Positions 5,380 through 23,872 of a stretch of 23,872 bases of DNA are shown here, one piece after another; position 1 is the stretch's first letter; the number at the start of each line of letters is the position of its first letter. The notes under the pieces are model-generated. The model made no database searches. It had not been told where the DNA came from and saw only the letters and a program-made list of their open reading frames with translations. A program made the translations under genes and the position numbers. Origin of the DNA: Baffinella frigidus (taxonomy: Eukaryota > Cryptophyceae > Cryptomonadales > Baffinellaceae); NCBI GenBank assembly GCA_026770585.1, contig MU646627.1, positions 91,126 to 114,997 on the forward strand, read 5' to 3'.

Positions 5380-5535
5380 ATGCTGTCTCAGCTGGTCAAG
5401 TCGGCGGCGCACAAGGAGGAGACAGATTCCCCCTCCTCGCATGGCAAAGCGAAGCAGCGCGGCGCGCTCATGCCCGCCGACGCACTGCGGGCCATCGCTG
5501 GACAGAGGGCCGGGATGCCAGAGCCGGAAGAGAAG
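5380..5535 (+). CDS. Plus-strand gene, exon 1 with start codon
   Basis: This exon is 52 codons starting MLSQLVKSAAHKEETDSPSS and ending PEPEEK before donor GTGCGG, with high third-position G/C. No in-frame upstream ATG gives comparable sequence. The Met is the first after the divergent promoter region. Confidence 0.7.
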
Positions 5536-8500
5536 GTGCGGCCTCATCCCTCAGCGTGACTTCCCATCAACAGGAAGTGATAAAAAACGGGTTCGGAAGC
5601 CCGCCGGGCAGACGCGGTGAGGAATGGTGGCGGGAGCAGGTTGTGGACTGGGACGGCTGAACTGTCCCTAAACCCTGAACCTAACCACACACCCCACACC
5701 CTAAATCCTCAACTCTGATCACTAAACCCTAAACCCCAAAACCTAAACCCCAAGCCATAAATTAAACCCTTAACCCTAAACCCTAAACCGCGACCCACAA
5801 GGTTGCGGACGGGGACAGGATCTACAGGGCCCGCAACGCGAAACCCTAAACCCCAAACCCTACACCTTGAACCTCAACCCTCAACCCTCAACCCCAAACC
5901 CAAAACCCAAAACCCAAAACCCAAACCCCAAACCCCAAATCCCAAACCCCAAACCCCAAACCTAACCCCTGAAGGATAGACCCTAACACCCACACCAGGT
6001 TGCGGACTGGGACAGGATCTATTGGGCGCGGATGGCGAAAGCCTCGCCGACCCTCCACATCTGCAAAGCCTTGGACAAGTCGGTACGCTCCTAGGCCTTA
6101 GGGTTCGGGGTTTTGGTTTTAGGGGCTCAGGGTTTAGGGTTTAGGGCCTTGGGGTTTAGGGTTCAGGGTTTAGGTTTTAGGGCCTCCGCTGCGCCTCCTT
6201 CATCTGGCCCGAGGCACGCTCCGCGCCTCCGGGTTGCTAGTGGTAGGGCCAGCTCTGCGCTGAGTGAACCCTGCGCGCGCCATCACCTTCGCTGGTGTTA
6301 CATCAACGTCACGAGTGGACGCCAGCGGTGATGAACCTTCATGAGACCATTCTGTCCAATTCCGTGCATGAGAGGTGACCACCTTTCGCCTCTCGCCTGC
6401 AGGTGCTGGAACTGTTGGACCATCTAGCGGCGCTCTCGGCCTGGCGCTCCGACGCGTTTCGCGAGCGCATCCTTCCTCTCCGGCACTCCCCCTCACCCCC
6501 CTACACCCTACACCCTCACTCTCGTAGACTATTCTCAAGTTGACATGCTGGGTTCCCGGTACAAATTCGTTAACTTGAGAGCAGGAACGAAACTCTTTCT
6601 CACCAAAGTGGTGAGCCAAAATAGGCCTCATCTCGGCCTGGCGTTGCGACGCGTTTCGCGGGCGCATCCCCCCCCTGCGGCAACCCCCCCACCCATCACA
6701 AGTTCTAGCTCTGCCTCAGTCGGGTTAGCTGACTATTCTCAAGTAGACGTCCTGGTTTGATGGTGAAAATCTGTCAACTGTGGAGCGGGAAAGATCCCGG
6801 GCTCACCAAGAGCCCTTGGCGCACCGAATTGGTGAGACCAACTAGGCCATCTCGCGGCGCTCTCTGCCTGACGCGCCGATGCGTTTCGGCACTGGTGAGT
6901 CTGGGATCACCAATGCCGGAGGGGCGGACTCCCCCAACCCCCCTACACCCTAATCACCAAACCCTAAACCCGAAACCCCACATCCTAAACCATGCGGGTA
7001 AACCCCAACCCCGAACCCCTGACCCCCACACCCCACACCCCACCCCAAACAGGCACTTCACGACGCTCTGGTTCATCTGCTCGCAGCTCTGCCAATGTTT
7101 TGGGGGTTAAATCCTAGACCCTAGACCTTGAACCCTTCAAATTAATCCCTAACCCATGAATCTCAAACAGGCACTTGACGACGCTGTCGGTGATCTGTTC
7201 GCAGCTGTACCGGGCGAAGGCGGACCTGCTTAGGGGTTAGGGTGTAGGGTTTACCCTCAGCCCTAACCCCCACACCCCACCCCTGCCCAAACTCTCAACC
7301 CTAAACCCTAAACCCTAAACCCTAAGCCCCAAACCCTAAATCCTCAACCCTAAACCCCAAACCCTAAACCCCAAAAGCTAAACCCTGAACCGTGAACAGG
7401 CACTTCACGACGCTCTCGGTGATCTGCTCGCAGCTGTGCCGCGCGAAGGCGGACCTGGGGGGCAACGCGACCAAGGTGGTGGCGCAGGTGCTTCCTCTTC
7501 CTCTTTAGTACTCCCAAGCCTTGGAGTTGAGTGATCCAAAAGTCTACATAGTGATCCAAAAGTCGACGAGCCGGAAAGGCCCGTTTCGGATTGGTGCACC
7601 CCGGAGTGGAGGACCGTGATCGTCCTTCAGAGTCACTTTGAATCCCGTAGGACGAGAGAATGAATCAGCGTCGGTGGAGACGGGATAATTCAGCGTCTCG
7701 TCTCTTGTGGGAGAGCTGGGACCCACTGTAGGCCCATACCGTACACAGGTTTTTGGAGTCTGGCCGTACACAGGATTCTAGAGCCCAAATACACTGTGTA
7801 TTGTTCGCACGCTGGTTTAGGGTTAAGGGTTTAGGGACCGCAAGCTGGGATAGAGGTAGGGGTTAGGGATAGGGTTGAGGGTTCCGGTTTTAGGGTTAAG
7901 GTTTCGGGGATTAGGGTTTAGGGTTAAGGATCTAGTGTTGGGATTTGGAGTTTTGGATTTGGAGTTGAGGGATAAGGGTTTACGGTTTACGGTTTACGGT
8001 TAAGTTTAGGGTGCTGGGGTTAACAAAAAAAGCCCCCTCAGGTACGGGCGCTGCTGATCGAGGTCTAGGGTCTAGGGTCTAGGGTTAGGAGTTGGAGTTC
8101 AGGGGTTTGGAGTTTACGGTTTACGGTTAAGTTTCAAGTTTAAGTTTAGGGGGTGCGGGTTAACGAAAACCACTCCCTCAGGTGCGGGCGCTGCTGATCG
8201 AGTCTCAGCGCGACGAGGACCTCGTCGTCTCGCGCGAGCTTCAGAAGCGCCGCAACGACCCCTCGATGCACCTCGAGGAGCAGATTGAGAAGCTCACCAC
8301 ACAGGTTCATAACCAAAACTGCTCCCTAGTAGATTTGTTTTAAAGCGGCTCTCCTGGTACACATAATAAAACTCGGCTATTTTATAATGACACAATGGCT
8401 CCAGTTCCGTAGTGAGGGATCGTGCTTTTAACGTTTGGGAAGCGGCGGAATGACCCCTCGATGCACCTCGAAGAATAGATCGAAAAGCTCTCTATGCAGG

Positions 8501-11500
8501 TGTATGATCTGAAGTGATAACCTGAACCTAGCCCCCCCAGTTCCTCCACGCAGGTGGCCCTCCCCAATTCCGGACAGAAATAGATTTGATTCAAATCACA
8601 TTTTTGCTATCTTAGGGGCGGGTTTTGTGCTATGGTAAAGCTATGTAGAGGAAAGATAGCAAATTGAACGCTCACGGTAACACAAAACATTATTTCAAAT
8701 CGAATGATTTCGCAAATGGGATACTTCAAATTGAATGATTTCGCATTATATTTGAACATTACGAAATCTGATCAGATTTCGTATGATTCAAATTGACGGT
8801 TTCGCAGTAGATTCCGGGGCGCGCGCGCGCGAAATCCGCCGCGTGGCACGCACCGGGAAGCCTCTGGCCATCTGGAGTGGAGTAGGGTCGTCACACTCTC
8901 GGTTCCAACCACACGGTGGTCTACAGACCTTTCATCAAAAGCCAACTTTCCCAGGGGGCAGTTACCTTTAAGGATTTTGGTCACGTTACCGCTAAATTTG
9001 GTCACGTTACCGCTAAACCTAGCGGAAGCGAAACCATCGTAGCCCACCGTGTGGATGATCCGTGACCCACAAGCCCTAAACCTTGAACGCTGAAGCGCAG
9101 CTGCAAACAACGAAGACGGATTTCTTGACAACGCGGACCGCGCGGCGGTGGGAGCGCCTGGTGCTCATCCTCGAGATCAGGTCCTTCCCCAAACACCACA
9201 CACCAAACACCGCACACCAAACACCACACACCAAACACCAAACGCCAAACGCCAACCCTCTGGGCAGGTTCCTCGAGACGCGCGCTTAACCCCACACCCC
9301 AACCCCCAAAAACCAAAACCCAAACTCCAAACTCCAACCCCCAAACCCAAACCGCACCCCCCCGGCCTGGGCAGGTTTCTGGAGACGCGGGGGAACAAGC
9401 TGAAGAAGAGCGAGGAGAAGTACATCACGCGCATCAAGGCCTCGACCACCCTCAAGGGCCTCCTCGCGGGCGCCCAGGAGGAGACAGCTGTCAAGTACGA
9501 TCACCAACTTAGTCCCGGACCTGAATAGATTTAATTTCGGGAATGTCCTTCTAAACACATAACTTTTAGGGCTTTAAAATCTTCGTACTTCTAGGGCTTT
9601 AAAAGATGTGGATTTGTACCAAGAATAGTTTAGATGGACAGTTCCCGTAATTAAATCTATTCAGGTTCGCGAAGAAACTGTTCACTAACCCGGGCGAGTT
9701 TTGTACCAGGGCGACGACTAATCCCAGCGGGGTTTGTACCGGGGAAAGGGAGGATTAGTCAACTGTTTCAAGGCCTCCTCCATGCTTCACGGCCCTGACG
9801 ACGCGCAAGGGGCTGCTCGCGGGTGCCCAGGAGGAGACCGCTGTCAAGTTAATAGTTTCCGACGCCTTCGCGAAGCAATAATGGCTCCAAGCCCCGTACA
9901 AATTTTGTATGGGACACGACCATGGACACGACCGTGAAGTCGTTTAAATGTCCATGAAGGGTATTTTAGGATCGTGTCCAATGTCTGGTACAAAATTTGT
10001 ACCAGGGCTTGGAGCCATTATTGCTTCGCGAAGGCGTTGTGAACTATGAAAGTACGGGCTTCAACCGTTTACTATCCCGCGCGGGGTTTGTACCTGGGCG
10101 ACGACTGATCCGGACAGGATTTTGTACCGGGGGAAGGGAGGATTAGTGCACAGCATCAAGGTCTCGACTACGCTCGCAGGGATGCAGAAGGATCAATCGA
10201 TTGCCAAGTATCCTACACCACACACACCACACACCACACACCACACACCACACACCACACACCACACACCACACCCCACACACCACACACCACACNNNNN
10301 NNNNNNNNNNNNNNNNNNNNNNNNNNNNNNNNNNNNNNNNNNNNNNNNNNNNNNNNNNNNNNNNNNNNNNNNNNNNNNNACACACCACACACCACACACC
10401 ACACACCACACACCACAACCCACACCCCACACCCCACACCCCACACCCCACAACCCACACCCCACACCCCTGCAGCTGATATGTAACTCCTACAAGTCTG
10501 GGGGTGGAGTGCAGTGCCCTCATCTGTCCCTCCAAGAACCATGGGTGTGGAGTGTGGTAGGTCCTAGGGGAGAGGCCCGGTGCTAGGAGCCCGAGGTCGA
10601 GCAAAGCCTTTCGTACTTGAACGATTGCTTTAAGTACACGTTAAGAACAAAAGTACCCCGCACGACGATTAAGGTCGAGAAATCTTCCTTGGTGCGGACC
10701 TCGATGCTTTCGGCATGCGCCTTTGGGTTAAGGGGTCAGGGGTTAGGGGTTAGGGTTTGGGGTTTAGAGCCCGAGGTCGAGCATAGCCCAGGAGGAGACA
10801 TCAGTTAACTTGACTTTGAAAGTCACCCTTAAGTGCACGGCAGTTGACTAACCCGGGCAGGATTTGTACCCGGGCGATGACTTATCCACACAGCGCACTA
10901 CAGCGGGGTTTCTTGAATAACTCGGAAATGAATAAGCCATAGCCCCTACGGTCGGCACTACCGTAGGCAGGGATGGGGGAAGGGAGGGAAGAAGGCGCCG
11001 AAGACACCCAAGGGGAAGGGTGGGCCGCATGTGGGGTTCCCTTAACTCTCAACCCTAAACACGAAACCCAACGCAGGAAGGGGGGGGGGGGCAAGGGCGG
11101 CAAGGGGAGGGGGAAGACACCAAAGGGGAAGACGGGGGCGCACGCTGGGATTCCGAAGACGGCGATGACCATGATCAAGAACGAAGCCGACAGGCTGGAG
11201 GGGCGCGAGGCCGCGGTAACACGAAACCCCAAAATCTTAAACCCCGAATCCGCTAGGGTTTGAAACCTCTAGGGACCCCCTTCAGGGTTTAGGATTCAGG
11301 GCTCGGGGTGTAGGATTCAGGTTTGAGGGTTTTGGGGGGAGGGTGGGCCGCACGCGGGAATTGCAAAGACGTCTTGATCATCGTCATCGATGACGATGAT
11401 CAACAACAAGGCGGATCGCCTCGAGGGGCGCGAGGCTGCCGCGTTACCGGTAACACTACATCCTGAACCCTCGACCCTCAATCCTGCATTCCGAATCCTG

Positions 11501-16198: not shown

Positions 16199-16230
<32 letters not shown>

Positions 16231-16426
16231 ACCATCAAGCATCAACCCTCAACCCTCAAACATCAACCATCCACCATCAACCATCAACCATAAATCCTCA
16301 CCACTGAACTCTGCACCCTGAACTCTGCACCCTGAACCATAAACCCGAAACCCGAAACCCGAAACCCGAAACCCGGAACCCGGAACCCGAAACACAACCC
16401 TCAACCCTCATCCCTCATCCCTCAAC

Positions 16427-16467
<41 letters not shown>

Positions 16468-19400: not shown

Positions 19401-22400
19401 GTTGTAAAAGGACGTGCAAGTACAAATCCCTGGTACAAATTGGAATGAAGACCGATTTGGTCGTCACTTGTAAAGGACCGGAATTTTTAGAATCGCGATT
19501 GGTTCTTGTCACGTCGAATTTCCGTAATCCGTACCCGAATTAAAAAGATACGTTTGCCCCCTCGCTATTCGACCGACCAAGGTAGAGCGGTTTCCACATC
19601 TGTTGGCCACACGAAAACAGGGAAATCATGCCAAACGTTGATCATGTTAGGACTCAACTGTCAAATGTTGGCATTGCTCGATTGTTTCGTGGCCAACAGA
19701 TGCGAAAACCGCTCTATCTGGATGTTGGGGTTGAGCATTTCGTTTGCCACGCCATATCGCTCGTGGGGGTTCGGCTCTTTCTGGGCGCTCTTGTAGGCGC
19801 TAGACTTTGCCAAATGCAAACATTTCCCCCTTATTCCTTCCGGGGAATTGACTTTAGGCGATCCCTTCCAAGAAACTGGCGTGTTACAACCCGGGGATGC
19901 TAATAGCAGGTATCCAGGTTGTAGGGTTCCACACGGTGGGCTTCACAGATCCGTCCATTTAGTTTCGTGGTACGAATTCAGAATTTCTCGATACAAAGAC
20001 ATTTAATTGACCGATATTTCGACCTGATTCCTGGTCAAGATCTCCTTTGAAGCTCACTTTGTGGAGGGTTTTGTCTTCCTAATTAAATCTTGGAACATAA
20101 CTGAACAGTTGCACGTTTTGCTATCGTAGGTATAAATTTGATACCAAATATAGCAACGACCACCCTAACATGTCACATACGAAATCTAAGAAAGCATCAA
20201 ACCGCAACTGATTCAGTTGTGTTTCTAGATTAAATTGAGACGTGAAAGAGTCCTTCAACCCCACCACCCAAACACCAAAACCCTAAACCCTAGACCCTAA
20301 ACCCCAAACCCTCAACCACAAACCCTCAACCACAAACCCTAAACCCCCCACCCCAATCCCTAATCCCTAAACCCTACCCCCCCCCAAAACCCAAAACGCT
20401 ACCCCCAGAACTCTCGGAGGACCGAGCGGGGGCGGCACGCCCAGAGTCAATCCCTCAACCCTAACCCCCGAACCCTAAACCCTAAACCCTAAACCCTAAA
20501 CCCTAAACGCAGCGGGAGGTTCAGAGCTAGGCTTGATCTCTCGATCGGGCTCGACCGAAGAAGGAGCGCCGGCGCAAGGGAGGAGAAGGGTGCGCAAGGG
20601 CGACGACCCAGTACAGCCCCACCCCTCAATCTCATCTCGGAACATACGAGAATCTGTCCTGATAAAAAGGCGTAAGATAGCAACATTTGATGCCTAAAAT
20701 AGCATATACACCCTTGCCTTCCGCACGGGGAGCCTCAGATAGCGGGGCAGATTCTATCTTGTTCCGAAAATAAATCTCAACACCACCCCTCCGAAGTGGA
20801 CCAGGCCCCGATTGTAGCGTCCTCGATTTCCGCCTGAGCCGGTTCGAATTCGGCCCGGTTGGAGCCGTTTTCAGGCGGGGAATGGATGGAGGTGGTTCTA
20901 GCCGCATGCTAGGTTTGGTCCACTTCGGAGGGCTAGTGGAGGAACGCCGGCTGGGAGGCGGAGGGTGCGCATGGGCAACGATATAGTTGGGAGCCTCACC
21001 TCCTCAACCCGAAACCCGGAATCCCAACCCCCAAATCCTAAACCCGAAACCCGGAACAGGAAACGGGGAAGCTGCGGGCGGAGCTAGAGGAGCGGTAAAC
21101 CCCAAACCCTAAACCCTGATCCCTCAAACCCACACCTTAAACCCTAAACCCTAAACCCCAAACCCTAAACCCTAACCCCTAAACCCTAAACCCTGAACCC
21201 CAAACATTAAACCCCAAACATTAAACCCCAAACCCTAAACCCTAAACCATGAGCCATGAACCATGAACCCTAAACCCCAACTCCTAACCCGTAAGCACTA
21301 AACCCTAAACCCGAAAGCAGGCGGTTGGATCTAGAGGCGCGGGAAGACCAAATCGAGCGGCAAAGGTCCGACCCTCAGCCCCAAACCCGAAAACCGGAAC
21401 CTTGAACCGTAAAACCCGAACCCGAACCCCTCAGACAGATAAGCGGACGAGCGGGAGAGCCCTGATTCCTAAATCCTAAAGCCTGAATCCTGAACACTGA
21501 ACACTGAACCCTAACCCCTAAACCCTGAACCCTAAAGATCAAACCATCTCCTAAACCCTAAACCCTGAACCCAAACGCCAGACCCTAAACCCCAGACCCA
21601 AAACGCGAACAGAGAGGCGGACGAGCGAGAGTCACAACAAAGAGAGCTGGCGATCCTCAAGAAGGTCATCAGCCCTCAAACCAAGCTTGTCCCAATCTAC
21701 CTATTGGCCCGAGTCTAAACACCAAACCTCAAAGGAGCATGGTGTATTTTTTTAAGGCGCATAGGACTCGGGTGCAGGTTTAAGAAGGTCATGAGCCCCC
21801 AACCTTCAACCTGTACCCGAGTCCTATGCGACTTCAAAAAATACACCATGTTTCTTTGGGGTTTGGGGTTTAGACTCGGACCGATAGGTAGACTGGGACT
21901 ACAAAGAGAGCTGGCGGTCCTCAAAAATTTATCACTGAAACCCCAAACCCCTAACCCCAAACCCTGAACCAGAAAATCGAAATCAGAAATTCCAAACCCC
22001 AATTCGCAAACCCAAAACTCTATGCCCTAAACCGGAGGCCAGCAAAGAGAGGTGGCGACCCTCAAAAAGGTCATGAACCTCACAACCCTCAACCCTCATC
22101 CCTCAACACTACATCCCCAAACCCTGCACCGGACTAAACCCTAAACCCTGAACCCTACACCCTAAACCCTTTACCCGAAAACCGAAACCCTAAACCCTAA
22201 ACCCCAAACCCTCAAAACTCAACAGGAGCGGCAAATCGCGGTGCACGAGGCAGAGTTCCACCACAAGTCTCGCGCTCAGGTTCGAAACCCAAGTCCTCAA
22301 ACCCTAAACCCTAAACCCTAAACCCTAAACCCTAAACCCTAGACCCCAAACCCCAAGCCCCAAGCCCTAGGCCCTAAACCCTAACCCCCAAAACCCAAAA

Positions 22401-23407
22401 CCTGAACCCTAAACCCTAATATCTAATCTCTATACACCATGAACCCTACATGAGAAAGAGTTGAAGGAGACGGTGGAGGAGTTCCCTGAACCCTAAACCC
22501 TGAACCCTAAACCCCAAATTCCAAACCCTAAACTATATAGACCCTTAACGAGCAGGAGAAATAGTTGAAGGAGACGGAGGAGGGGTTCCTGGTTCATGTT
22601 GTTTTACCTAAACCCTAAACCCTAAACCCTAAACCCTAAACCCTAAACCGCCTCAAGGATCCTGCGGGATCCGTGTGGTAAACCCTTATCCCTAATCCCT
22701 AATCCCTAAACCCTAAACCCTAAACACTAAACCCTAAACCCTAAACCCTAAACGAGCAGGAGAAAGAGTTGAAGGAGACGGAGGAGGGGTTCAGGGGCGA
22801 GCTGGCGGCGATGACCTCGCGCCATGCGGAATCCACCGCCAGCATCATCGCCCTTCAAAAGGAGGTGTGTGCATCCGAGATCCAAAGTTGACGGGTGTGC
22901 ACCGCAAAGTCTGCATGTCAACTTAAGAGTAGGCCCCGAACCACCCGCCCTGGCCTCGGGTTTCGGGTGTAGGGTTAGGGGTGAGAGATTCAGGGCCGAG
23001 CTGGCGGCGATGACGTCGCACCGTGCGGAATCCACTGCCGAGATCATCACGCTCCAGAAAGAGGTACACGGGGCTGGTGTCAGGTGGTGTTTGGGTTTCG
23101 GGTGTCCAATAGTGCAGGGTGTAGGGTGTAGGGTGAAGGGTTCAGAGCCGAGCTGGATTCACTCACGTTAAATCATGAGGAATGCACTTCCTGGCGAGGA
23201 TCACCCTTCAGAAAGAGGTATGCATCCGTCCTAACCTGAGCCCCCCGAAACCCGAGACCCGAAACCCGAAACCCGAGACCCGAAACCCGGAAGCCGAAGC
23301 CCCAAGCCCTAAACACTAAACCCAAAACCCAAACCCAGGTGGACAAGGGGCTGGGGGACCTGGAGCGCAAGGCAGACAAGCTGAAAGTCAACCGCGCATC
23401 CGACCGC
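5380..23407 (+). CDS. Long multi-exon gene, unknown charged helical/coiled-coil protein (3' end outside window)
   Basis: I propose 28 exons in order: 5380-5535, 5574-5639, 5999-6082, 6403-6486 (donor unclear), 7400-7487, 8182-8304, 9101-9180, 9375-9494, 11077-11215, 12046-12150, 13025-13084, 13953-14009, 15177-15287, 15477-15521, 15699-15743 (GC donor), 16095-16176, 16471-16523, 17195-17271, 17756-17801, 18062-18126, 18829-18935, 20513-20610, 21060-21094, 21321-21365, 21613-21664, 22226-22279, 22760-22864, 23339-23407. Exon phases (0, 1 or 2) match from exon 5 to exon 28 without a stop, which is strong evidence for a real gene. The product (about 750 residues here) has a short polar N-terminus, helical stretches rich in E, K, R, Q, L and A, a basic Gly/Lys linker (exon 9), Ser/Pro-rich linkers (exons 15-22) and a second helical part (exons 23-28). 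It looks like a structural or scaffold coiled-coil protein. I recognise no family and see no catalytic motif, signal peptide or membrane segment. Confidence 0.7.
5574..5639 (+). CDS. Plus-strand gene, exon 2
   Basis: The 22 codons start EVIKNGFG and end GEEWWREQ, with acceptor CAACAG and donor GTTGTG. The preceding intron (5536-5573) is only 38 bases. Ending at GAGCAG rather than the GTGAGG at 5617 keeps phase 0 with exon 3. Confidence 0.65.
5640..5660 (+). repeat. Acceptor-side echo of exon 3 (first)
   Basis: GTTGTGGACTGGGACGGCTGA immediately follows exon 2 and repeats the first ~20 bases of exon 3 (GTTGCGGACTGGGACAGG), then breaks off in telomere-like repeat. Confidence 0.7.
5662..5998. 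repeat. Intron 2: CCCTAAA/CCCCAAA/CCCAAAA arrays
   Basis: Degenerate heptamers fill the intron, interrupted by a second acceptor-side echo of exon 3 at 5802-5840 (GTTGCGGACGGGGACAGGAT and about 20 further bases). Confidence 0.8.
5999..6082 (+). CDS. Plus-strand gene, exon 3
   Basis: The 28 codons read VADWDRIYWARMAKASPTLH then ICKALDKS. Acceptor is CACCAG and donor GTACGC, phase 0 at both ends. Two truncated upstream copies support its boundaries. Confidence 0.7.
6083..6402. repeat. Intron 3: TTTAGGG-orientation heptamers plus unique sequence
   Basis: From 6096 to 6184 the G-rich heptamer orientation appears (GGGTTTA, GGGGTTT). The rest, 6185-6402, is non-repetitive with no recognised feature. 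The GLGFR-type peptides encoded here are translations of the repeat. Confidence 0.7.
6403..6486 (+). CDS. Plus-strand gene, exon 4 (donor not identified)
   Basis: Acceptor CGCCTGCAG is followed by VLELLDHLAALSAWRSDAFR and ERILPLRH. The frame stays open past 6486 into low-complexity C-rich sequence, and there is no GT in the phase needed for exon 5. Echo copies downstream end CGGCAC TG|GTGAGT, so the ancestral donor was probably just after CGGCAC and has changed in this copy. Confidence 0.55.
6521..6626. mobile_element. CTAGCTCTG-family element, partial copy D
   Basis: Contains GACTATTCTCAAGTTGACATGC, GTACAAATTCGTTAAC, GAGCAGG and CTCACCAAAGTGGTGAG in the family order, lacking clear outer termini. 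It sits directly upstream of an exon 4 echo. Confidence 0.6.
6622..6670 (+). repeat. Echo of exon 4 (middle copy)
   Basis: Repeats CTCGGCCTGGCG..GACGCGTTTCGCG of exon 4 with mismatches and lacks the 5' part. It follows element copy D. Confidence 0.7.
6705..6845. mobile_element. CTAGCTCTG-family MITE-like element, copy E
   Basis: It starts CTAGCTCTGCCTCAGTCGGG and ends GGTGAGACCAACTAG. The interior keeps GACTATTCTCAAG and CTGTCAACTGTGGAGCGGG. It also sits directly upstream of an exon 4 echo, which suggests copies D and E were duplicated together with the exon segment. Confidence 0.75.
6846..6894 (+). repeat. Donor-side echo of exon 4 with intact GTGAGT
   Basis: Repeats CATCTCGCGGCGCTCTCTGCC, with an in-frame TGA in place of a Trp codon, and ends CGGCACTG|GTGAGT. 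This donor would give exactly the phase 2 needed for exon 5, but the stop prevents use of this copy in the proposed frame. Confidence 0.65.
7053..7095 (+). repeat. Acceptor-side echo of exon 5 (first)
   Basis: AAACAG followed by GCACTTCACGACGCTCTGGT and on to CAGCTCTGCC repeats the start of exon 5, then becomes heptamer repeat. Confidence 0.75.
7171..7230 (+). repeat. Acceptor-side echo of exon 5 (second)
   Basis: About 60 bases with few mismatches to the 5' part of exon 5, up to GCGGACCTG, then TTAGGGGTTAGGG. The acceptor-side truncation matches the first echo. Confidence 0.8.
7400..7487 (+). CDS. Plus-strand gene, exon 5
   Basis: One base plus 29 codons, HFTTLSVICSQLCRAKADLG and GNATKVVAQ, with acceptor GAACAG and donor GTGCTT. 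Two upstream partial copies mark the acceptor. Exit phase 0 matches exon 6. Confidence 0.65.
7488..8181. repeat. Intron 5: unique sequence then TTTAGGG heptamers
   Basis: Bases 7530-7800 are non-repetitive, with 'gatccaaaagtc' and 'cgtacacagg' each present twice. From about 7812 the G-rich heptamers dominate, and GTTTACGGTTTACGGTTTACGG shows the period of seven. An acceptor-side echo of exon 6 is at 8042-8062, preceded by a matching pre-acceptor stretch (CCCTCAG). Confidence 0.7.
8182..8304 (+). CDS. Plus-strand gene, exon 6
   Basis: The 41 codons begin VRALLIESQRDEDLVVSREL and end EEQIEKLTTQ, rich in E, Q, R and L with hydrophobic spacing suggesting a helix. Acceptor is CCCTCAG, donor GTTCAT, phase 0 both ends. 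Confidence 0.75.
8440..8499 (+). repeat. Donor-side echo of exon 6
   Basis: Repeats the 3' half of exon 6 (AAGCGGCGGAATGACCCCTC onward) to TATGCAG|GTG, with an in-frame TAG replacing a Gln/Glu codon. The 5' part is missing. Confidence 0.8.
8560..8820. other. AT-rich insert with tandem motif and palindrome
   Basis: The motif TCAAATTGAATGATTTCGCA occurs three times (about 8694, 8726, 8787). A 24-bp perfect palindrome spans 8760-8783. 'Ttgctatctt' and 'aagatagcaa' (about 8607 and 8664) form a further inverted pair. The block looks like an inserted element with unclear ends. Confidence 0.5.
8909..9054. mobile_element. ACACGGTGG-family MITE-like element, copy 1
   Basis: Terminal inverted repeats CCACACGGTGGTCTAC and GTAGCCCACCGTGTGG match at 15 of 16 positions over a 146-bp element. 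An internal direct repeat, TTTGGTCACGTTACCGCTAA, is present twice in tandem. A second copy is at 14383-14521. Confidence 0.8.
9101..9180 (+). CDS. Plus-strand gene, exon 7
   Basis: The 26 codons plus two bases read LQTTKTDFLTTRTARRWERL and VLILEI. The acceptor is taken at GAAGCGCAG (9099-9100) because that gives phase 0 with exon 6. The donor GTCCTT gives phase 2, matching exon 8. Confidence 0.6.
9183..9373. repeat. Intron 7: ACCAAAC/ACCACAC heptamers
   Basis: Seven-base units of CACCAAA, CACCACA and CGCCAAA fill the intron. An acceptor-side echo of exon 8 lies at 9268-9287 (GCAG then GTTCCTCGAGACGCGCGC). Confidence 0.75.
9375..9494 (+). CDS. Plus-strand gene, exon 8
   Basis: The frame reads FLETRGNKLKKSEEKYITRI, then KASTTLKGLLAGAQEETAV, ending with two bases before GTACGA. 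The three donor-side echoes downstream share the CAA|GT ending. Phase 2 entry and exit fit exons 7 and 9. Confidence 0.7.
9520..9665. mobile_element. MITE-like element with ~30-bp terminal inverted repeats
   Basis: The outer ends CCTGAATAGATTTAATT and AATTAAATCTATTCAGG are complementary, and the repeat continues inward to GGGAATGTCC/GGACAGTTCCC. It contains a tandem CTTTTAGGGCTTTAAAA-like unit. It lies 25 bases after the exon 8 donor and has no ORF. Confidence 0.85.
9677..9766. mobile_element. GTTGACTAATCC-family element
   Basis: The ends (ACTGTTCACTAACCC and GGATTAGTCAACTG) are roughly inverted. Inside are two TTTGTACC-containing units, each followed by a purine-rich stretch. Related sequences occur at about 10065-10150, 10842-10890 and 15995-16083. 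Confidence 0.5.
9769..9848 (+). repeat. Donor-side echo of exon 8 (first)
   Basis: CAAGGCCTC..AAGGGGCTGCTCGCGGGTGCCCAGGAGGAGAC..GTCAA|GT repeats the 3' two-thirds of exon 8 with a small indel that breaks the frame. Confidence 0.8.
9852..10047. mobile_element. Foldback element with ~50-bp terminal inverted repeats
   Basis: The arms (about 9852-9911 and 9988-10047) are near-perfect reverse complements, running from ATAGTT through CGCCTTCGCGAAGCAATA and GGCTCCAAGCCC to GTACAAATTTTGTA. The interior holds a second, nested inverted pair (GGACACGAC../..ATCGTGTCC). It begins directly at the end of an exon 8 echo. Confidence 0.9.
10154..10207 (+). repeat. Donor-side echo of exon 8 (second)
   Basis: ATCAAGGTCTCGACTACGCTC to GCCAA|GTATCC repeats the 3' part of exon 8, diverged in the middle. 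It is preceded by GTTGACTAATCC-family sequence like that before the first echo. A third short remnant (GCCCAGGAGGAGACATCAG) is at 10787-10805. Confidence 0.7.
10208..10295. repeat. (CCACACA)n array, left of the gap
   Basis: Period-7 array of CCACACA with occasional CCCCACA. It continues on the other side of the gap at 10380-10470, where the unit shifts to CCCCACA. Confidence 0.9.
10296..10379. other. Assembly gap (84 N)
   Basis: Run of N inside the CCACACA array. The true array length is unknown, and open frames drawn across it are meaningless. Confidence 0.99.
10480..10970. other. Intron 8, right part: mostly unassigned
   Basis: Contains GAGCCCGAGGTCGAGCA twice (about 10588 and 10769), a short G-rich heptamer patch (10728-10765), the exon 8 remnant at 10787-10805, and a GTTGACTAACCC-family fragment near 10847. 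No gene is supported. Confidence 0.5.
10971..11033 (+). repeat. Acceptor-side echo of exon 9
   Basis: After TAGGCAG, GGAAGAAGGCGCCGAAGACACC and so on repeat the basic Gly/Lys first half of exon 9 and then stop at GGGCCGCATG. Confidence 0.7.
11077..11215 (+). CDS. Plus-strand gene, exon 9 (basic linker then helix)
   Basis: One base and 46 codons: a KGGGGKGGKGRGKTPKGK basic segment, then AGIPKTAMTMIKNEADRLEG ending REAA before GTAACA. Entry phase 2 and exit phase 0 fit exons 8 and 10. The G-run at 11081-11091 is a likely spot for sequencing or slippage errors. Confidence 0.7.
11335..11443 (+). repeat. Donor-side echo of exon 9 with an inverted duplication
   Basis: Repeats the 3' two-thirds of exon 9 up to GAGGCTGCCGCG. 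In place of the ATGACCATGATCAAG segment it carries a 30-bp perfect palindrome (11374-11403), and the first arm creates a stop. Confidence 0.8.
11457..12045. repeat. Intron 9, 3' part: heptamers and two exon 10 echoes
   Basis: CCCTAAA/CCCTGAA repeats are broken by acceptor-side echoes of exon 10 at 11694-11742 and 11855-11903. Both are preceded by a shared intronic segment (GCAAATGTC..TTCGTTCAGGTTATGT). The duplicated unit is therefore intron plus exon start. Confidence 0.8.
12046..12150 (+). CDS. Plus-strand gene, exon 10
   Basis: The 35 codons read VLKQEERVMSQRDALRAAAA then DFEAEKDDILAEHQE. This is a strongly helical, heptad-like segment. Acceptor TTTTTTCCTCAG is good, donor GTGCTT, phase 0 at both ends. 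Truncated copies flank it on both sides. Confidence 0.8.
12274..12329 (+). repeat. Donor-side echo of exon 10
   Basis: GCGGCTGCGGATTTCGAGGC through ATTCAGAG|GTGAGA repeats the 3' half of exon 10. A shorter one is at 12402-12426 (GAGATTCTGGCTGAGAGCCT..GAG|GTGAGG). Confidence 0.85.
12530..12865. repeat. Tandem array of GTTGACGATGCTGG units with exon 11 echoes
   Basis: The unit is a hairpin-forming GTTGACGATGCTGGTACTG..TGTCAAC segment, then GGCGG.AG and the start of exon 11. Acceptor-side echoes of exon 11 are at 12577-12610, 12680-12715 and 12810-12863. The last is almost full length, losing only the final codons. Confidence 0.8.
12866..12981. repeat. Tandem repeat TTTGTCAACTTAGGCCCGCA
   Basis: About six copies, some truncated, of a ~21-bp unit containing GTCAAC. 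The unit joins the third exon 11 echo to the next GTTGACGATG unit, so it probably expanded from part of it. Confidence 0.85.
13025..13084 (+). CDS. Plus-strand gene, exon 11
   Basis: The 20 codons read VLRMQEEQETLAARLDKRSK, helical. Acceptor GGCGGCAG, donor GTCTCC, phase 0 at both ends. Confidence 0.75.
13217..13239 (+). repeat. Donor-side echo of exon 11 (first)
   Basis: Exact copy of the last 23 bases of exon 11 (CGCCTCGACAAGCGCAGCAAG) followed by GTTCCC. A second is at 13321-13345, and a weaker match is near 13540. Confidence 0.85.
13552..13870. other. Intron 11, non-repetitive stretch
   Basis: No heptamers and no recognised element here except an acceptor-side echo of exon 12 at 13757-13793 (CCCGCGCTCGACATCAG then GGTGTGGAG). 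An 89-codon plus-strand frame across 13601-13870 has no splice support and is not called. Confidence 0.5.
13953..14009 (+). CDS. Plus-strand gene, exon 12
   Basis: The 19 codons are DVEEKLRRGEDRLKTQRTQ, highly charged helix. Acceptor CGACATCAG, donor GTCCCA, phase 0 at both ends. Confidence 0.75.
14044..14254. mobile_element. CTAGCTCTG-family sequence, copy F, split by an exon 12 echo
   Basis: 14044-14084 starts CTAGCTCTGTCGCTGTCTGG and ends TTTGTACC. 14150-14254 resumes with GTCTTTTTGGTCTTACCAAT, CTCCAAAGCTGACGG and TGTCAACTTAAGAATAGTC. Between them lies a donor-side exon 12 echo (14093-14144), so element and exon copy were duplicated or rearranged together. Confidence 0.6.
14093..14144 (+). 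repeat. Donor-side echo of exon 12 (first)
   Basis: GAAAAGCTCCGCCGCGGAGA through CGATCCCAG|GTC. The reading frame stays open, so this could be an extra exon by chance, but its 5' end lacks a good acceptor. Confidence 0.75.
14274..14323 (+). repeat. Donor-side echo of exon 12 (second)
   Basis: CGAAAAAGCACCGCCGCGAAG through GCGGTCGCAC|GTTTCGG repeats exon 12, 5' end missing. Confidence 0.75.
14383..14521. mobile_element. ACACGGTGG-family MITE-like element, copy 2
   Basis: The right end GTAGTCCACCGTGTGG is intact and the left end CCATATAGTGGACTAC is partly degraded. The inner CTCAAAAGTCAACTTGCCCC and GGTCACG segments align with copy 1 (8909-9054). A lone end (CCACACGGTGGGCTTC) is at 19929-19944. 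Confidence 0.75.
14580..14919. other. Intron 12: unique sequence and CCTAATTAAAT-rich tract
   Basis: GTTGGAACCATTT occurs twice near 14637 and 14670. 14713-14757 resembles part of exon 13. From 14780 the intron is AT-rich with repeated CCTAATT(A/G)AAT motifs, of different composition from the heptamer introns. Confidence 0.55.
14920..15000 (+). repeat. Acceptor-side echo of exon 13
   Basis: GAGCCTCGTATTCCAG then GTGGAGGGAATGATTCTCGT through GGGCTCGAGATCCG repeats the first 25 codons of exon 13 in an open frame, lacking the final ~11 codons and donor. The upstream AT-rich intron is duplicated with it, since both end CCTCGTATT(C/G)CAG. Confidence 0.85.
15177..15287 (+). CDS. Plus-strand gene, exon 13
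   Basis: The 37 codons start VEGKIPVLEALKESIQDRMV and end LSILHTFAEHQ. Acceptor CGTATTGCAG, donor GTGGCC, phase 0 at both ends. Confidence 0.75.
15295..15476. repeat. Intron 13: degenerate CCCTAAA heptamers
   Basis: The intron is almost entirely 7-base units with point variants, running directly to the acceptor AAACCAG. Confidence 0.85.
15477..15521 (+). CDS. Plus-strand gene, exon 14
   Basis: The 15 codons are AAPVAKMAKEALEFA, with phase 0 at both ends and donor GTAAAC (the donor also starts the following CCCTAAA array). Confidence 0.6.
15522..15698. repeat. Intron 14: longest perfect CCCTAAA array
   Basis: About ten consecutive perfect CCCTAAA units (about 15536-15600) pass into CCCCAAA units and then degenerate copies. 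The intron consists of little else. Confidence 0.95.
15699..15743 (+). CDS. Plus-strand gene, candidate exon 15 (GC donor)
   Basis: The 15 codons are VASGVAAPISPEQWQ after acceptor AACCAG. The only phase-compatible end is CAG|GCGCGC, which would need a GC-AG intron. Exons 14 and 16 are also phase-compatible without it, so it may be a cassette exon or a relic. Confidence 0.4.
15938..15985 (+). repeat. Acceptor-side echo of exon 16
   Basis: GAAGCAG then GCGGTGGGAATGGCATCG and GGAGCCGGGCCC repeat the first half of exon 16, then diverge. Confidence 0.8.
15995..16083. mobile_element. GTTGACTAATCC-family element, second copy
   Basis: It starts CAGTTGACTAATCC and ends GGATTACTCAAGG, with two GGTAC-containing inner motifs like 9677-9766. 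Its end lies 11 bases before the exon 16 acceptor. Confidence 0.5.
16095..16176 (+). CDS. Plus-strand gene, exon 16
   Basis: The 27 codons plus one base read AAGMASTPGAGPGGVASMKS and PGASGQL, a flexible Gly/Ser/Ala/Pro linker. Acceptor TTTGCAG, donor CTAG|GTTTCA, exit phase 1 matching exon 17. Confidence 0.6.
16185..16470. repeat. Intron 16: successive CCCTCAA, CCCGAAA and CCGAAAA arrays
   Basis: This is the clearest example of unit switching within one intron. CCCTCAA copies (16196-16260) pass to CCATCAA, then CCCGAAA (16340-16390), then CCGAAAA (16430-16465). All keep period seven. Confidence 0.9.
16471..16523 (+). CDS. Plus-strand gene, exon 17
   Basis: Two bases plus 17 codons, LAELLDRASGLESEERK, helical. 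Entry phase 1, exit phase 0, donor GTCTAA. Confidence 0.65.
16524..17194. repeat. Intron 17: mixed heptamers, (CATAAAA)n and (CCCCAAA)n
   Basis: Includes CATAAAA units (16945-16990) and about six CCCCAAA units (17031-17075). An acceptor-side echo of exon 18 is at 16884-16919 (ACAG then GCACTCATGGACGCGCTGCG). Confidence 0.85.
17195..17271 (+). CDS. Plus-strand gene, exon 18
   Basis: The 25 codons plus two bases read ALVDALRQMDPERRGVGTED then TDRVV. Acceptor CCCCAG, donor GTACAC, exit phase 2. Confidence 0.65.
17272..17755. repeat. Intron 18: heptamers and a repeated AT-rich segment
   Basis: A segment ATAAACAATACATTCAACCC or close variant, following CCAAAC.AT.AA.GA.AA, occurs three to four times (about 17405-17440, 17478-17505, 17545-17575, 17685-17715) among CCCCAAA/CCACAAA units. 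This suggests a larger tandem unit of about 70-130 bases. Confidence 0.75.
17756..17801 (+). CDS. Plus-strand gene, exon 19
   Basis: One base plus 15 codons, RGAADGGDEMGPAQQ. Entry phase 2 and exit phase 0 are both compatible. Acceptor AACCAG, donor GTGGAT. Short, so mainly supported by phase. Confidence 0.5.
17802..18061. repeat. Intron 19: CCCTAAA and CCCCAAA arrays
   Basis: Contains about eight consecutive CCCTAAA units at roughly 17936-17990 flanked by CCCCAAA units. Confidence 0.9.
18062..18126 (+). CDS. Plus-strand gene, exon 20
   Basis: The 21 codons plus two bases read ALMRGGKSPSQNMSPALRKS and I. This is a Ser/Pro-rich basic linker. Acceptor AACACAG, donor GTATGC, exit phase 2. Confidence 0.65.
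18127..18828. repeat. Intron 20: echoes, heptamers and a MITE-like element
   Basis: A donor-side echo of exon 20 at 18154-18169 carries about 30 bases of the following intron (CCTACGCCC, then ATCACGAA or GTTTACGAA). CCCTAAA units fill 18240-18375. An acceptor-side echo of exon 21 is at 18390-18433 (encoding PERTEPR against PERSESP). The element 18487-18617 and a pure CCCTAAA/CCCTTAA run (18715-18810) follow. Confidence 0.75.
18487..18617. mobile_element. TCGGAACA-family MITE-like element, copy 1
   Basis: The terminal inverted repeats TCGGAACA..AATCTGTCC and GGACAGATT..TGTTCCGA bound 131 bp. The inside has GTAAGATAGCA, AAAATAGCATATACACCCTT and CCTAAGATAGCGGG. Copy 2 at 20637-20767 has the same length and similar flanks (AATCTCATC before, TAAATC after). 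Confidence 0.85.
18829..18935 (+). CDS. Plus-strand gene, exon 21
   Basis: One base, 35 codons and one base: AVEGQPKIPERSESPFAKRL then TSNLDSPNISPKATS, a Ser/Pro-rich linker with possible SP phosphorylation sites. The acceptor CTTCTTCCTACCTACAG is one of the best in the gene. Donor GTCAGT. Confidence 0.7.
18957..19121. mobile_element. Foldback element with ~60-bp terminal inverted repeats
   Basis: The arms 18957-19017 and 19061-19121 pair almost throughout (ATAGGCTAACGTCC.../...GGACGTTAGCCTAT, with CCTACGGTATTGCCTAC inside). It starts 22 bases after the exon 21 donor. Confidence 0.9.
19196..19337. mobile_element. MITE-like element with GAGGCCACGCAAT ends
   Basis: Perfect 13-bp terminal inverted repeats (19196-19208, 19325-19337) bound 142 bp of AT-rich sequence with a T8 run. 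No second copy is seen in the window. Confidence 0.75.
19338..19582. other. Intron 21, unassigned stretch
   Basis: No heptamers, gene or full element are seen. The motif GGTACAAAT near 19434 is shared with several elements. Confidence 0.4.
19583..19716. mobile_element. MITE-like element with ~35-bp terminal inverted repeats
   Basis: TAGAGCGGTTT..CATCTGTTGGCCAC and GTGGCCAACAGATG..AACCGCTCTA enclose 134 bp. The interior holds ACGTTGATCATGTT. Plus-strand frames of 90-96 codons across it lack splice or family support. Confidence 0.85.
19929..20079. other. Single ACACGGTGG-family end and unassigned sequence
   Basis: 19929-19944 is one terminus of the family at 8909 and 14383. No opposite end is found. 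The rest of the stretch has no recognised feature. Confidence 0.45.
20080..20238. mobile_element. MITE-like element with ~33-bp imperfect inverted repeats
   Basis: The left arm TAATTAAATCTTGGAACATA..CAGTTGC pairs with the right arm GCAACTGATTCAGTT..TCTAGATTAAATTGA. The interior contains inverted TTTGCTATCG/ATAGCAACG. Confidence 0.7.
20255..20512. repeat. Intron 21, 3' part: CCCTAAA heptamers to the acceptor
   Basis: Dense heptamers, with a short GC-rich segment at 20402-20448 that may be a decayed acceptor-side echo of exon 22. Confidence 0.8.
20513..20610 (+). CDS. Plus-strand gene, exon 22
   Basis: Two bases plus 32 codons: GGSELGLISRSGSTEEGAPA then QGRRRVRKGDDP. This frame was chosen because entry phase 1 and exit phase 0 (donor CCA|GTACAG) fit exons 21 and 23. 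The other frames do not fit. Confidence 0.65.
20637..20767. mobile_element. TCGGAACA-family MITE-like element, copy 2
   Basis: This is 131 bp, the same length as copy 1 (18487-18617) with scattered substitutions and the same terminal repeats. It lies 27 bases after the exon 22 donor and 19 bases before the next element. Confidence 0.85.
20787..20932. mobile_element. MITE-like element with perfect 17-bp inverted termini
   Basis: CCCTCCGAAGTGGACCA (20787-20803) and its exact complement (20916-20932) bound 146 bp. Sub-terminal hairpin-forming sequence lies around GCCGGTTCGAATTCGGC. Confidence 0.9.
20941..20990 (+). repeat. Donor-side echo of exon 22
   Basis: GAACGCCGGCTGGGAGGCGG..GGGTGCGCATGGGCAACGAT, then A.A|GTT, repeats the 3' third of exon 22. 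Confidence 0.7.
21060..21094 (+). CDS. Plus-strand gene, exon 23
   Basis: The 11 codons plus two bases read ETGKLRAELEE. Acceptor GGAACAG, donor GTAAAC. Start of the second helical region. Confidence 0.6.
21095..21320. repeat. Intron 23: CCCTAAA heptamers with variants
   Basis: Contains small tandem runs of CCCCAAACATTAAA and ACCATGA units. All of it is heptamer-based. Confidence 0.85.
21321..21365 (+). CDS. Plus-strand gene, exon 24
   Basis: One base, 14 codons and two bases: RLDLEAREDQIERQ. Acceptor AAAGCAG, donor GTCCGA, phase 2 in and out. Confidence 0.65.
21435..21460 (+). repeat. Acceptor-side echo of exon 25
   Basis: AGACAGATAAGCGGACGAGCGGGAGAG resembles the acceptor and first bases of exon 25, then passes into heptamers. 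Confidence 0.6.
21613..21664 (+). CDS. Plus-strand gene, exon 25
   Basis: One base plus 17 codons, EADERESQQRELAILKK. Acceptor GCGAACAG, donor GTCATC. Entry phase 2, exit phase 0. Confidence 0.65.
21687..21904. mobile_element. Large foldback element carrying a splice-junction copy in its loop
   Basis: The arms of about 100 bases (21687-21788 and 21803-21904) are near-complementary, including GGTGTATTTTTTTAAGGCGC / GCGACTTCAAAAAATACACC and CCCGAGTCCTATGCG / CGCATAGGACTCGGG. The loop contains AAGAAGGTCATGAGCCC, a copy of the exon 25 end and donor (AAGAAGGTCATCAGCCC) found 20 bases before the element. Confidence 0.85.
21901..21930 (+). repeat. Donor-side echo of exon 25 (first)
   Basis: ACAAAGAGAGCTGGCGGTCC and TCAAAAAT follow the foldback directly. 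A second echo at 22040-22070 (AGCAAAGAGAGGTGGCGACC..AAAAAG|GTCATG) keeps the donor. Confidence 0.8.
21931..22225. repeat. Intron 25, 3' part: CCCTAAA, CCCCAAA heptamers
   Basis: Heptamers occupy the stretch on both sides of the 22040-22070 echo and run to the exon 26 acceptor. Confidence 0.8.
22226..22279 (+). CDS. Plus-strand gene, exon 26
   Basis: The 18 codons are ERQIAVHEAEFHHKSRAQ. Acceptor CTCAACAG, donor GTTCGA, phase 0 at both ends. Confidence 0.65.
22280..22759. repeat. Intron 26: CCCTAAA arrays with two exon 27 echoes
   Basis: Clean CCCTAAA arrays (22300-22340, 22610-22650, 22705-22755) alternate with acceptor-side echoes of exon 27 at 22452-22487 and 22556-22590. The second has AAATAG in place of AAAGAG. 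Confidence 0.85.
22760..22864 (+). CDS. Plus-strand gene, exon 27
   Basis: The 35 codons read EKELKETEEGFRGELAAMTS then RHAESTASIIALQKE, helical. Acceptor CGAGCAG, donor GTGTGT, phase 0 at both ends. Two echoes lie on each side. Confidence 0.75.
22884..22937. repeat. CTAGCTCTG-family core fragment, copy G
   Basis: CCAAAGTTGACGGGTGTGCACC..GCATGTCAACTTAAGAGTAGGCC matches only the GTTGAC-GTCAAC core of the family. Confidence 0.65.
22990..23063 (+). repeat. Donor-side echo of exon 27 (first)
   Basis: Encodes FRAELAAMTSHRAESTAEII and TLQKE before GTACAC, open throughout. Its only nearby AG would give a phase that does not fit exon 27 or 28, so it is taken as an echo rather than an exon. Confidence 0.7.
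23141..23217 (+). repeat. Donor-side echo of exon 27 (second)
   Basis: TTCAGAGCCGAGCTGGATTC through CAGAAAGAG|GTATGC, more diverged than the first. Confidence 0.7.
23230..23338. repeat. Intron 27, 3' part: CCCGAAA/CCCGAGA heptamers
   Basis: CCCGAAA units predominate, changing to CCCAAAA next to the acceptor. Confidence 0.85.
23339..23407 (+). CDS. Plus-strand gene, exon 28 (last in window)
   Basis: The 23 codons read VDKGLGDLERKADKLKVNRA and SDR. Acceptor AACCCAG, donor GTACCC, phase 0 at both ends. The gene is expected to continue past the window. Confidence 0.65.
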
Positions 23408-23872
23408 GTACCCCCCAAACCCAAAACCCGACACCCGGAACCCGAAACCCAAAACCCGAAACCCGAAACTCGGTAACCTTGAACCGCGCGTCTGACCGCG
23501 TGGACCCCAAACCCTAAACCCTAGCGGCCATAGCGCCACAATTCAATTAGGCGGCCGTGTTGATTTAATTGGGCGGGCTAATTAATTCGTAGGCGCCCCC
23601 ATGTAATTCCTCCTCCTGGATAGGATGAATTAAATAGGGGCGCCTACGAGTTGGCAGAGCTAGGGGGTGCTGGGGTTCAGGGTTCAGGGTTCAGGGTTCA
23701 GGGTATCCAGCTCAACCTCACTTGGAGTGAGGGTAGGCCCTAGGAGCGCCCCCCCCCTCAAAACGAACCGATCATCTGATCGCGTAACTCCAAAACCAGG
23801 AAGAACCCCCCCCCCCAACCGTCCTGCCCCTCGCCCTCCACCCTGAACCCTAAACAACCCCAGACCCCCCCC
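23408..23872. repeat. Intron 28 (incomplete): heptamers, exon 28 echoes and a short inverted repeat
   Basis: CCCGAAA-type heptamers are followed by donor-side echoes of exon 28 at 23473-23491 (GAACCGCGCGTCTGACCGC|GTGG) and 23764-23781 (GAACCGATCATCTGATCGC|GTAA). A 13-bp perfect inverted repeat TCGTAGGCGCCCC is at 23587-23599/23637-23649 within an AATTAAAT-rich tract, and GGTTCAG heptamers are at 23672-23703. Confidence 0.75.

Follow-up and report, generated by a model that had tools for sequence, protein, structure and literature searches.

How do introns come to be filled with pieces of the exons on either side of them? The question is raised by a gene of Baffinella frigidus, carried on the + strand of a 23,872-nucleotide (nt) stretch of DNA (contig C321 of a 382-Mb eukaryotic assembly) that is called the window here. 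The gene runs from a start codon exon at 5380 at least as far as exon E29 (23407). Partial copies of its exons, referred to as echoes, lie in the adjoining introns, and these introns are rich in arrays of a telomere-like heptamer and hold a small dispersed element, element C. The best explanation, to which we give a probability of about 0.5, is that arrays or small elements enter the DNA at staggered breaks, that repair of the break duplicates tens of bases and that the echoes are by-products of this repair. The evidence suggests that DNA inserted at breaks enlarges old introns; it may create new ones too.

Partial exon copies in neighbouring introns

Echoes were sought by blastn of the exons against the introns. 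Matches above 28.3 bits were taken as supported, the highest null scores being 26.5 bits (reversed window), 27.4 (10 block shuffles) and 28.3 (reversed locus of a dynein gene on contig C23, described below). All 32 matches above this level in the window gene lie in an intron neighbouring the exon that they copy, as a first-pass annotation made from the sequence had described. On the sense (+) strand there are 31, 16 upstream and 15 downstream of the exon; the single match on the - strand (11372-11389) is, by reading, a short palindrome within an echo of E8.

The same annotation held that upstream copies keep the acceptor side and downstream copies the donor side, and advised sorting the matches by edge and side. 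When this is done, with the kept edge defined as the edge with fewer missing bases, 30 of the 31 sense echoes agree (upstream copies keep the exon start, downstream copies the exon end), as do all six echoes of the dynein gene on C23; no clear copy of opposite polarity was found among the 31. One copy of E3 (6847-6888) is ambiguous, with 17 nt missing on one side and 21 on the other, and by reading resumes at the donor (..CG/GCACT, the slash marking the border). E3 was considered as an exception to the polarity and rejected, one copy being ambiguous and the other conforming given the GC donor of this exon. A copy of E10 (12814-12864) conforms by one base (4 versus 5 missing). If weaker copies are included by eye there are 20 upstream and 20 downstream echoes, the number per side originally estimated.

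The echoes do not, as had been thought, attend nearly every exon. A supported echo exists for 14 of the 27 modelled exons (15 if the weak ones of E29 are counted), and echo-bearing exons are longer, with a median of 84 nt (n = 15) versus 48 nt (n = 11, E1 excluded; Mann-Whitney p = 0.0015). Among the 31 supported copies of the window gene and the 6 of the dynein gene on C23, none is complete at both exon ends with both splice sites. In-frame stops occur within copies of E3, E5, E9 and dynein exon D9; stop flags for copies of E28 are unreliable, as the phase is lost across the E21-E24 stretch.

The exon model covers 5380-23407 and was built from reading frame, splice sites and matches to P0001, the protein relative discussed below. 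It leaves out 18936-21059, between E21 and E24, and its numbering differs from that of the first-pass annotation. The exons are as follows.

5380-5535, +, E1, start codon; by reading, outside the P0001 alignment
5999-6082, +, E2; frame, splice sites
6403-6482, +, E3, GC donor; P0001 tblastn, E 0.005
7400-7487, +, E4; P0001 tblastn
8182-8304, +, E5; P0001 tblastn
9101-9180, +, E6, without supported echo; P0001 tblastn
9375-9494, +, E7; P0001 tblastn
11077-11215, +, E8; P0001 tblastn
12046-12150, +, E9; P0001 tblastn
13025-13084, +, E10; P0001 tblastn
13953-14009, +, E11; P0001 tblastn
15177-15287, +, E12; P0001 tblastn
15477-15521, +, E13; weak P0001 tblastn, E 1.5
15699-15743, +, E14, GC donor; weak P0001 tblastn, E 4.4
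16095-16176, +, E15 (corrected end); frame continuity, splice sites
16471-16523, +, E16 (corrected end); weak P0001 tblastn, E 0.67
17195-17271, +, E17; splice sites, echo
17756-17801, +, E18, tentative; splice sites
18062-18126, +, E19; weak P0001 tblastn, E 7.6
18390-18437, +, E20, tentative; by reading
18829-18935, +, E21, tentative; by reading
21060-21094, +, E24; weak P0001 tblastn, E 5.8
21321-21365, +, E25; frame continuity
21613-21664, +, E26; frame continuity, echoes
22226-22279, +, E27; weak P0001 tblastn, E 0.23
22760-22864, +, E28; P0001 tblastn
23339-23407, +, E29; splice sites

The echoes upstream of their exons are these.

5802-5847, +, echo of E2, acceptor and head, 48.2 bits; a weaker earlier copy at 5640-5654
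7053-7093, +, echo of E4, 57.2 bits
7171-7228, +, echo of E4, 83.3 bits
8042-8062, +, echo of E5, 34.6 bits; intron tail common too
10975-11040, +, echo of E8, 41.9 bits
11694-11741, +, echo of E9, 74.3 bits
11855-11901, +, echo of E9, in-frame stop, 45.5 bits
12579-12606, +, echo of E10, 29.2 bits
12680-12714, +, echo of E10, 36.5 bits
12814-12864, +, echo of E10, almost the entire exon, 79.7 bits
14701-14766, +, echo of E12, 34.6 bits
14920-14996, +, echo of E12, 68.0 bits
15938-15976, +, echo of E15, 42.8 bits
16884-16912, +, echo of E17, 35.6 bits
22452-22484, +, echo of E28, 51.8 bits
22556-22588, +, echo of E28, TAG stop by reading, 56.3 bits

Downstream of their exons lie the following.

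6631-6669, +, echo of E3, exon end, 58.1 bits
6847-6888, +, copy of E3, ambiguous edge, in-frame stop, 54.5 bits
8439-8501, +, echo of E5 with donor, in-frame stop, 59.0 bits for 8439-8490
9784-9849, +, echo of E7 with donor, 67.1 bits
10153-10208, +, echo of E7, 29.2 bits for 10153-10175, remainder by reading
10786-10808, +, echo of E7, 29.2 bits
11388-11439, +, echo of E8, 50.0 bits
12276-12322, +, echo of E9, 68.0 bits
13217-13239, +, echo of E10, 42.8 bits
13321-13344, +, echo of E10, 44.6 bits
14098-14145, +, echo of E11, 65.3 bits
14277-14316, +, echo of E11, 55.4 bits
21898-21927, +, echo of E26, 41.9 bits
22040-22069, +, echo of E26, 37.4 bits
22983-23063, +, echo of E28 with donor, 79.7 bits
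23482-23499, +, weak echo of E29, 24.7 bits, under the null maximum

Between E26 and its echoes an imperfect palindrome of about 220 bp is found by reading (21680-21900), with a short donor-side copy of E26 (about 21782-21805) near its centre.

Arrays and element C between duplicated flanks

Arrays were located with a hidden Markov model of the CCCTAAA heptamer. They are CCCTAAA/TTTAGGG-like, their likeness to telomeres being one of repeat sequence alone, and they make up 40.6% of the window introns; the figure is 0.2% for exons, 1.8% for the 5.4 kb upstream and 0.9% for shuffled sequence. In the window gene 48 of 65 array segments are C-rich in the sense direction. Of 40 echoes, 17 have an inner edge no more than 10 bp from an array (11 of 20 upstream, 6 of 20 downstream); about 6% of random non-array intron positions lie as close.

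The flanks of arrays were compared in the window and eight of the fetched loci; the comparison took in neither L012 and L021 (mostly N) nor the short loci (L001-L008, L029-L037), and an array had to be at least 35 bp long and not too near an end. Direct duplications, scored against a 99% null, flank 39 of 147 arrays, and the inverted-flank control gives 1 of 147. The window gene contributes 20 of 49, dynein genes on C23 and C65 contribute 3 of 26 and 0 of 6, and six loci not picked for echoes contribute 16 of 66 (L009, 5; L011, 1; L013, 5; L014, 5; L023, 0; L024, 0), the first three of the six sitting on the window's own contig. The null is heavy-tailed (99.9% at 122), probably since random flank pairs can be neighbours, and therefore errs on the strict side. 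A direct target duplication beside the array, the mark expected of insertion at a staggered break, is present at this subset, and in 15 of the 39 it is precise: both copies of the duplicated stretch (S) lie within 8 bp of the array, forming a sandwich in which S, cut at the array edges, measures 16-101 bp. Locus L009, just upstream of the window, holds what reads as an open exon with an acceptor copy upstream and a donor-side copy downstream, each across an array. Arrays of the window gene that lie between copies, or that fill introns, are the following.

5830-5996, +, array between two E2 head copies
7230-7397, +, array between two E4 head copies, short G-rich then C-rich
11745-11804, +, array between two E9 head copies, 101-bp duplication
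12162-12274, +, G-rich array between the E9 end and its echo; next array 17 bp past the second copy
16920-17192, +, array between two E17 head copies
21460-21609, +, array between two E26 head copies
22484-22549, +, array between two E28 head copies
15523-15696, +, intron E13-E14, 98% telomere-like array
17273-17753, +, intron E17-E18, 99% telomere-like array

Element C is a dispersed sequence of about 100 bp, seen solely as part of introns or outside the gene; the arrays have no inverted repeats. After 7 of 29 matches were dropped as repeats of the same places, the window and the fetched loci together hold 22 distinct copies. Of these, 12 have direct duplications in their flanks that score above a 99% null (inverted control, 0 of 22), as do 7 of the 14 that lie outside the window gene and the dynein gene on C23; among the 12 the duplications span 33-78 bp. 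The clearest case (L012, 8322-8418) has 63-bp copies of S at gaps of 2 and 9 bp, with neither an element nor an array outside. Element C sits between copies of E3 (twice), between echoes of E11, and between copies of E28 and of dynein exon D14.

6527-6625, +, element C between E3 copies, flank duplication
6731-6846, +, element C between E3 copies, flank score under the 99% null
14159-14254, -, element C between two E11 echoes, flank duplication
22872-22932, -, element C between E28 and its echo, flank duplication

Upstream of the gene (3820-4058) another copy, at 3912-4007, lies between 51-bp direct copies at gaps of 41 and 0 bp, and is directly preceded by a further element C. More short inverted-repeat elements were noted by reading at 9505-9662, 9861-10045, 9690-9770, 10063-10147 and 15994-16075; one such element, with ends like cagttgactaatcc, occurs several times in the window.

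Two dynein genes

A dynein heavy-chain gene on C23, found via PF12774, was modelled with 23 exons over 8.6 kb, which when joined give a dynein sequence. Its introns are 69% C-rich and 3% G-rich array, and it has the six supported echoes already mentioned. In the second dynein gene, on C65, the modelled exons number 9 and are larger, and the 8 introns are 81% array; no echo above the null was found across these 8 introns. Array introns are present in all three genes and echoes in two, so echoes are not universal among array-rich genes. Over the region in which the two dyneins (L038 and L039) can be aligned (50% identity over 520 amino acids (aa)), the gene on C23 has 22 introns and the gene on C65 has 4, a more than 5-fold difference within one genome, with one shared position.

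Insertion or tandem duplication?

Under the explanation that we prefer, a staggered-end break would open in or beside an exon, and CCCTAAA-variant repeat DNA, presumably from a telomerase-like source, or a small dispersed element would be inserted during repair. Fill-in of the overhangs would leave tens of bases directly duplicated on both sides (S, insert, S). Where S crosses or touches an exon border, one copy would lie within the complete exon and the other would be an echo. Where S lies inside coding sequence the insert would have to be spliced out, which would work only in an intron-like sense (C-rich, ending CCAG/G).

The polarity of the echoes does not help in choosing a mechanism. It had been ascribed to the survival of those arrangements that leave a complete exon. 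Any direct tandem duplication over one border yields the same polarity and always keeps one complete exon, and polarity as evidence for selection was rejected for this reason. Being forced by geometry, polarity does not separate the models, other than by arguing against truncated whole-exon copies. Selection could show only as a deficit of whole-exon copies. None are seen, versus 30, 7.4 or 1.8 expected per 40 under three unit lengths, and the strength of the deficit depends on the unit assumed.

The closest rival, and the one nearest to the model of the first-pass annotation, is a series of small tandem duplications in unstable array-rich introns. These would arise by template switching or slippage, with breakpoints in the intron and 20-100 nt into the exon, the inserts being part of the unit or added later. 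We consider this possible, if the less probable of the two; insertion with duplication is preferred because the same footprint surrounds two kinds of insert, arrays and element C, and both processes may act.

Several observations weigh against insertion, some of them as tandem duplication predicts. No array lies within 10 bp of the inner edge in 23 of 40 echoes, and two of the six other loci (L023 and L024) have no array with a duplication. A further array stands beside S in 11 of the 15 sandwiches, a second element lies within 150 bp in 7 of the 12 duplicated element C cases, and in only 3 of these 12 are both copies within 10 bp of the element. On the acceptor side, intron tails are common to about 7 of 20 pairs (E5, E9, E10 three times, E11 and E12), and intron and exon DNA are shared together by pairs of E5 (120 nt, 90/124), E9 (11640-11789 versus 11801-11948), E10 and E12. 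A copy of E3 and element C are repeated as a unit (6434-6590 versus 6631-6794). One E28 pair flanked by arrays on both sides (22556 and 22760) shares its arrays, with a score of 25 in the top 1% of the null. The duplications, at 16-101 bp, are also longer than the exon-shared repeats of 4-12 bp reported for Daphnia (PMC4202315).

Other results are not what serial tandem duplication would leave. No second array occurs within 15 bp of S in 4 of the 15 sandwiches (one of them barely, at 17 bp), and 5 of the 12 element C cases have no second element C in the 150 bp beyond the duplicated stretch. For donor-side copies, once the anchors had been corrected, none of 18 pairs (the 20 pairs minus two copies without a donor, 10808 and 21928) has a common intron head above the 95% null, a weak test since array-like heads raise the null. 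An earlier anchored version, with several anchors misplaced, gave 0 of 20, 14 of the 20 scoring 3 or less; by reading, the E9 and E28 donor-side pairs have short gapped pieces in common. In the seven array-array pairs, taken together, the arrays match each other no better than unrelated arrays do (mean 12.7 versus 12.9). A unit as long as the spacing between copies should leave about 30 whole-exon copies per 40, shorter units the 7.4 or 1.8 quoted above. Finally, an echo in the dynein gene on C23 crosses the D14-D15 exon junction without an intron.

What stands of the earlier model is recurrent, local, direct partial duplication, found in another gene as well, by which introns grow and fill with splice-site decoys; for duplication straddling the donor border the weak test above gave no support. 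Tandem duplication as the simplest explanation is incomplete, for it leaves out what lies between the copies, often an array and sometimes a dispersed element.

It is improbable that the duplications come from the insertion of mobile elements (element C and further small inverted-repeat elements), with the arrays as later filler. The duplications at 12 of 22 element C copies, 7 of them among the 14 outside the window gene and the dynein gene on C23, and the position of the element between copies of E3, E11, E28 and D14 would fit. Most array sandwiches, however, contain no element C, and 10 of the 22 copies of the element are without a duplication above the null. Target duplications of transposons are generally short and of fixed size, whereas those here span 33-78 bp.

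Still less credible is a role for the echoes as alternative or regulatory exons or as selected splice decoys. Many retain AG or GT by reading, and the E28 echo at 22983-23063 retains its donor. Every echo, however, is without one splice edge, in-frame stops interrupt copies of E3, E5, E9 and D9, and the complete exon beats the copy against P0001 in all six cases where both match (E3, E4, E9, E10, E11 and E28). Decayed or truncated extra copies from whole-exon tandem duplication, which the near-complete E10 copy (12814-12864, without only 4 and 5 nt at its ends) and the in-frame stops of some echoes might recall, can be dismissed almost entirely, since truncation would hit either end equally, yet 30 of 31 and 6 of 6 copies keep the expected side and no supported copy is complete at both exon ends.

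Array introns and the possible birth of introns

All 27 introns with an array content of 85% or more are predominantly C-rich on the sense strand, one of them mixed (0.62 to 0.33). The array begins within 6 nt of the donor in 24 of the 27 and ends within 5 nt of the exon in 23. Most array segments of the window gene are C-rich anyway (48 of 65), so that the excess, though real, is less extreme than it would be if either sense were equally likely; by arithmetic it has a probability of about 3 in 10,000, with introns treated as independent. Such an excess fits arrays that would function as intron bodies.

A more tentative proposal is that telomere-like arrays entering at staggered breaks are ready-made introns, the C-rich sense carrying a donor, a branch-like sequence and an acceptor. 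Insertion in an exon would then give a new intron and insertion at a border an echo, one process filling the genes of this genome. Intron birth by array insertion is proposed from one echo and from differences in intron number between the dynein paralogues and relative to P0001, for which intron loss is an alternative. The echo (L038, 5551-5604) is a copy of the D14 end that continues in register into 14 nt of the D15 head (13/14) and then into array. It resembles coding sequence from which the intron is absent, and appears to be one clear case of intron birth. The wider comparison tells against generality: an in-register test of donor and acceptor context, run on 45 introns, gave no sign that introns in general arise by duplication (p = 0.57 for the head and 0.61 for the tail; p = 0.34 when shifts are tolerated). 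In-register runs of at least 7 nt were seen twice versus 0.34 expected. Of the 45 introns, three (those after E15, E16 and dynein D22) were off register by 1-2 nt, and three introns around E20-E24 were omitted.

A side observation concerns 22864-23090, where the sequence that follows the donor of the first E28 echo looks, by eye, like the start of E29 interrupted by a gap of 2 nt and may be another junction without its intron.

The window gene and its relative

A database search with the draft query returned P0001 as the sole protein above threshold (46% identity over 66% of the query), a 976-aa reading frame on a 4133-bp contig. In tblastn of P0001 against the window, 11 of the 27 exons (E3 to E12 and E28) match at E 0.005 or better and 6 more match weakly, with order kept; the other 10 are supported by frame and splice sites. 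The P0001 frame is open throughout, and few introns are therefore possible in its gene there. Between QKRR and RNDP (residues of about 76-105) P0001 has some 30 additional residues, which may be an in-frame intron that was translated as protein. A Pfam search of the draft protein gave no family at the cut-off and a single match below it (E 6.9), two scans of viral contigs gave neither a relative nor a match, and a scan of the window for the dinoflagellate spliced leader found nothing.

GC donors occur at E3 and E14. Among 55 introns pooled from the three genes, 53 are followed by an exon that begins with G and 5 have a GC donor; the tally omits one intron around E20-E24, and three donors in it read GG from exon ends that are off by 1-2 (E15, E16 and dynein D22). 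Elsewhere in the window, tandem GC-rich repeats with units of about 28 and 58 bp lie upstream of the gene (705-952), and a 152-bp sequence occurs twice, 87.5% identical and about 2 kb apart (18478-18629 and 20628-20779), flanking the stretch after E20.

Comparison with known systems

The origin and growth of introns are an old problem, and there are few systems in which the act can still be seen. In this genome inserts, the duplicated flanks beside them and decayed fragments of exons survive in many copies, and not in one gene alone. If insertion and duplication occur together, the repair of breaks with telomere-like DNA would rank as a major source of the intron sequence found here, and the sense in which near-pure array introns lie would offer a natural test of which sequences the spliceosome takes for introns.

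The components have precedents. New introns of Daphnia pulex have direct repeats at opposite ends and are ascribed to repeated rounds of staggered breaks, with internal repeats in 55 of 90 (PMC4202315). Direct repeats and repeated breaks are points of likeness; the string 'telomer' is absent from that paper, and the in-register test over 45 introns here gave no general signal. Across many taxa, 213 introns have direct repeats of 4-30 bp at or near their borders, taken as footprints of insertion (PMC11782384), whereas the long duplications here surround arrays inside introns and the intron-end permutation test is negative in general. Intron gain by tandem genomic duplication of AGGT (PMC3443670; see also PMC4974935) likewise involves direct duplication of coding sequence, and the first exon base here is G in 53 of 55 introns; in contrast to what PMC3443670 describes, most echoes here are mid-intron, set apart by arrays or elements, and do not form intron ends. 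Introners (PMC7789003 and PMC11453091) are repeated DNA serving as whole introns, and small inverted-repeat elements are nearby here, but the main intron body in this genome is a simple heptamer array rather than an element with terminal inverted repeats. The chlorarachniophyte Amorphochlora amoebiformis also has an intron-rich genome with repeat-rich introns. There, [AT]n repeats occur in half of 26 lineage-specific introns, nine of them at AG/GN sites, the telomere repeat is TAACCC, and exon echoes are unmentioned in the sections available (PMC12730881).

A search of open-licence papers, which is weak evidence of absence, gave no account of telomeric repeats that form the body of introns or of partial exons with such a polarity, and the combination and density seen here did not turn up. 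A parallel also exists in the interstitial telomeric sequences of human and horse, in which telomeric repeats are inserted at breaks with duplications at some loci (PMC7215372). In the horse 3 of 66 loci have a duplication and 2 of 66 a deletion, an addition and a duplication, the direct duplications being attributed to staggered breaks; duplications are rare there, and no human array is in an exon according to the same paper. In this genome, by comparison, the arrays fill introns, direct duplications flank 39 of 147 of them and the near-pure array introns are oriented.

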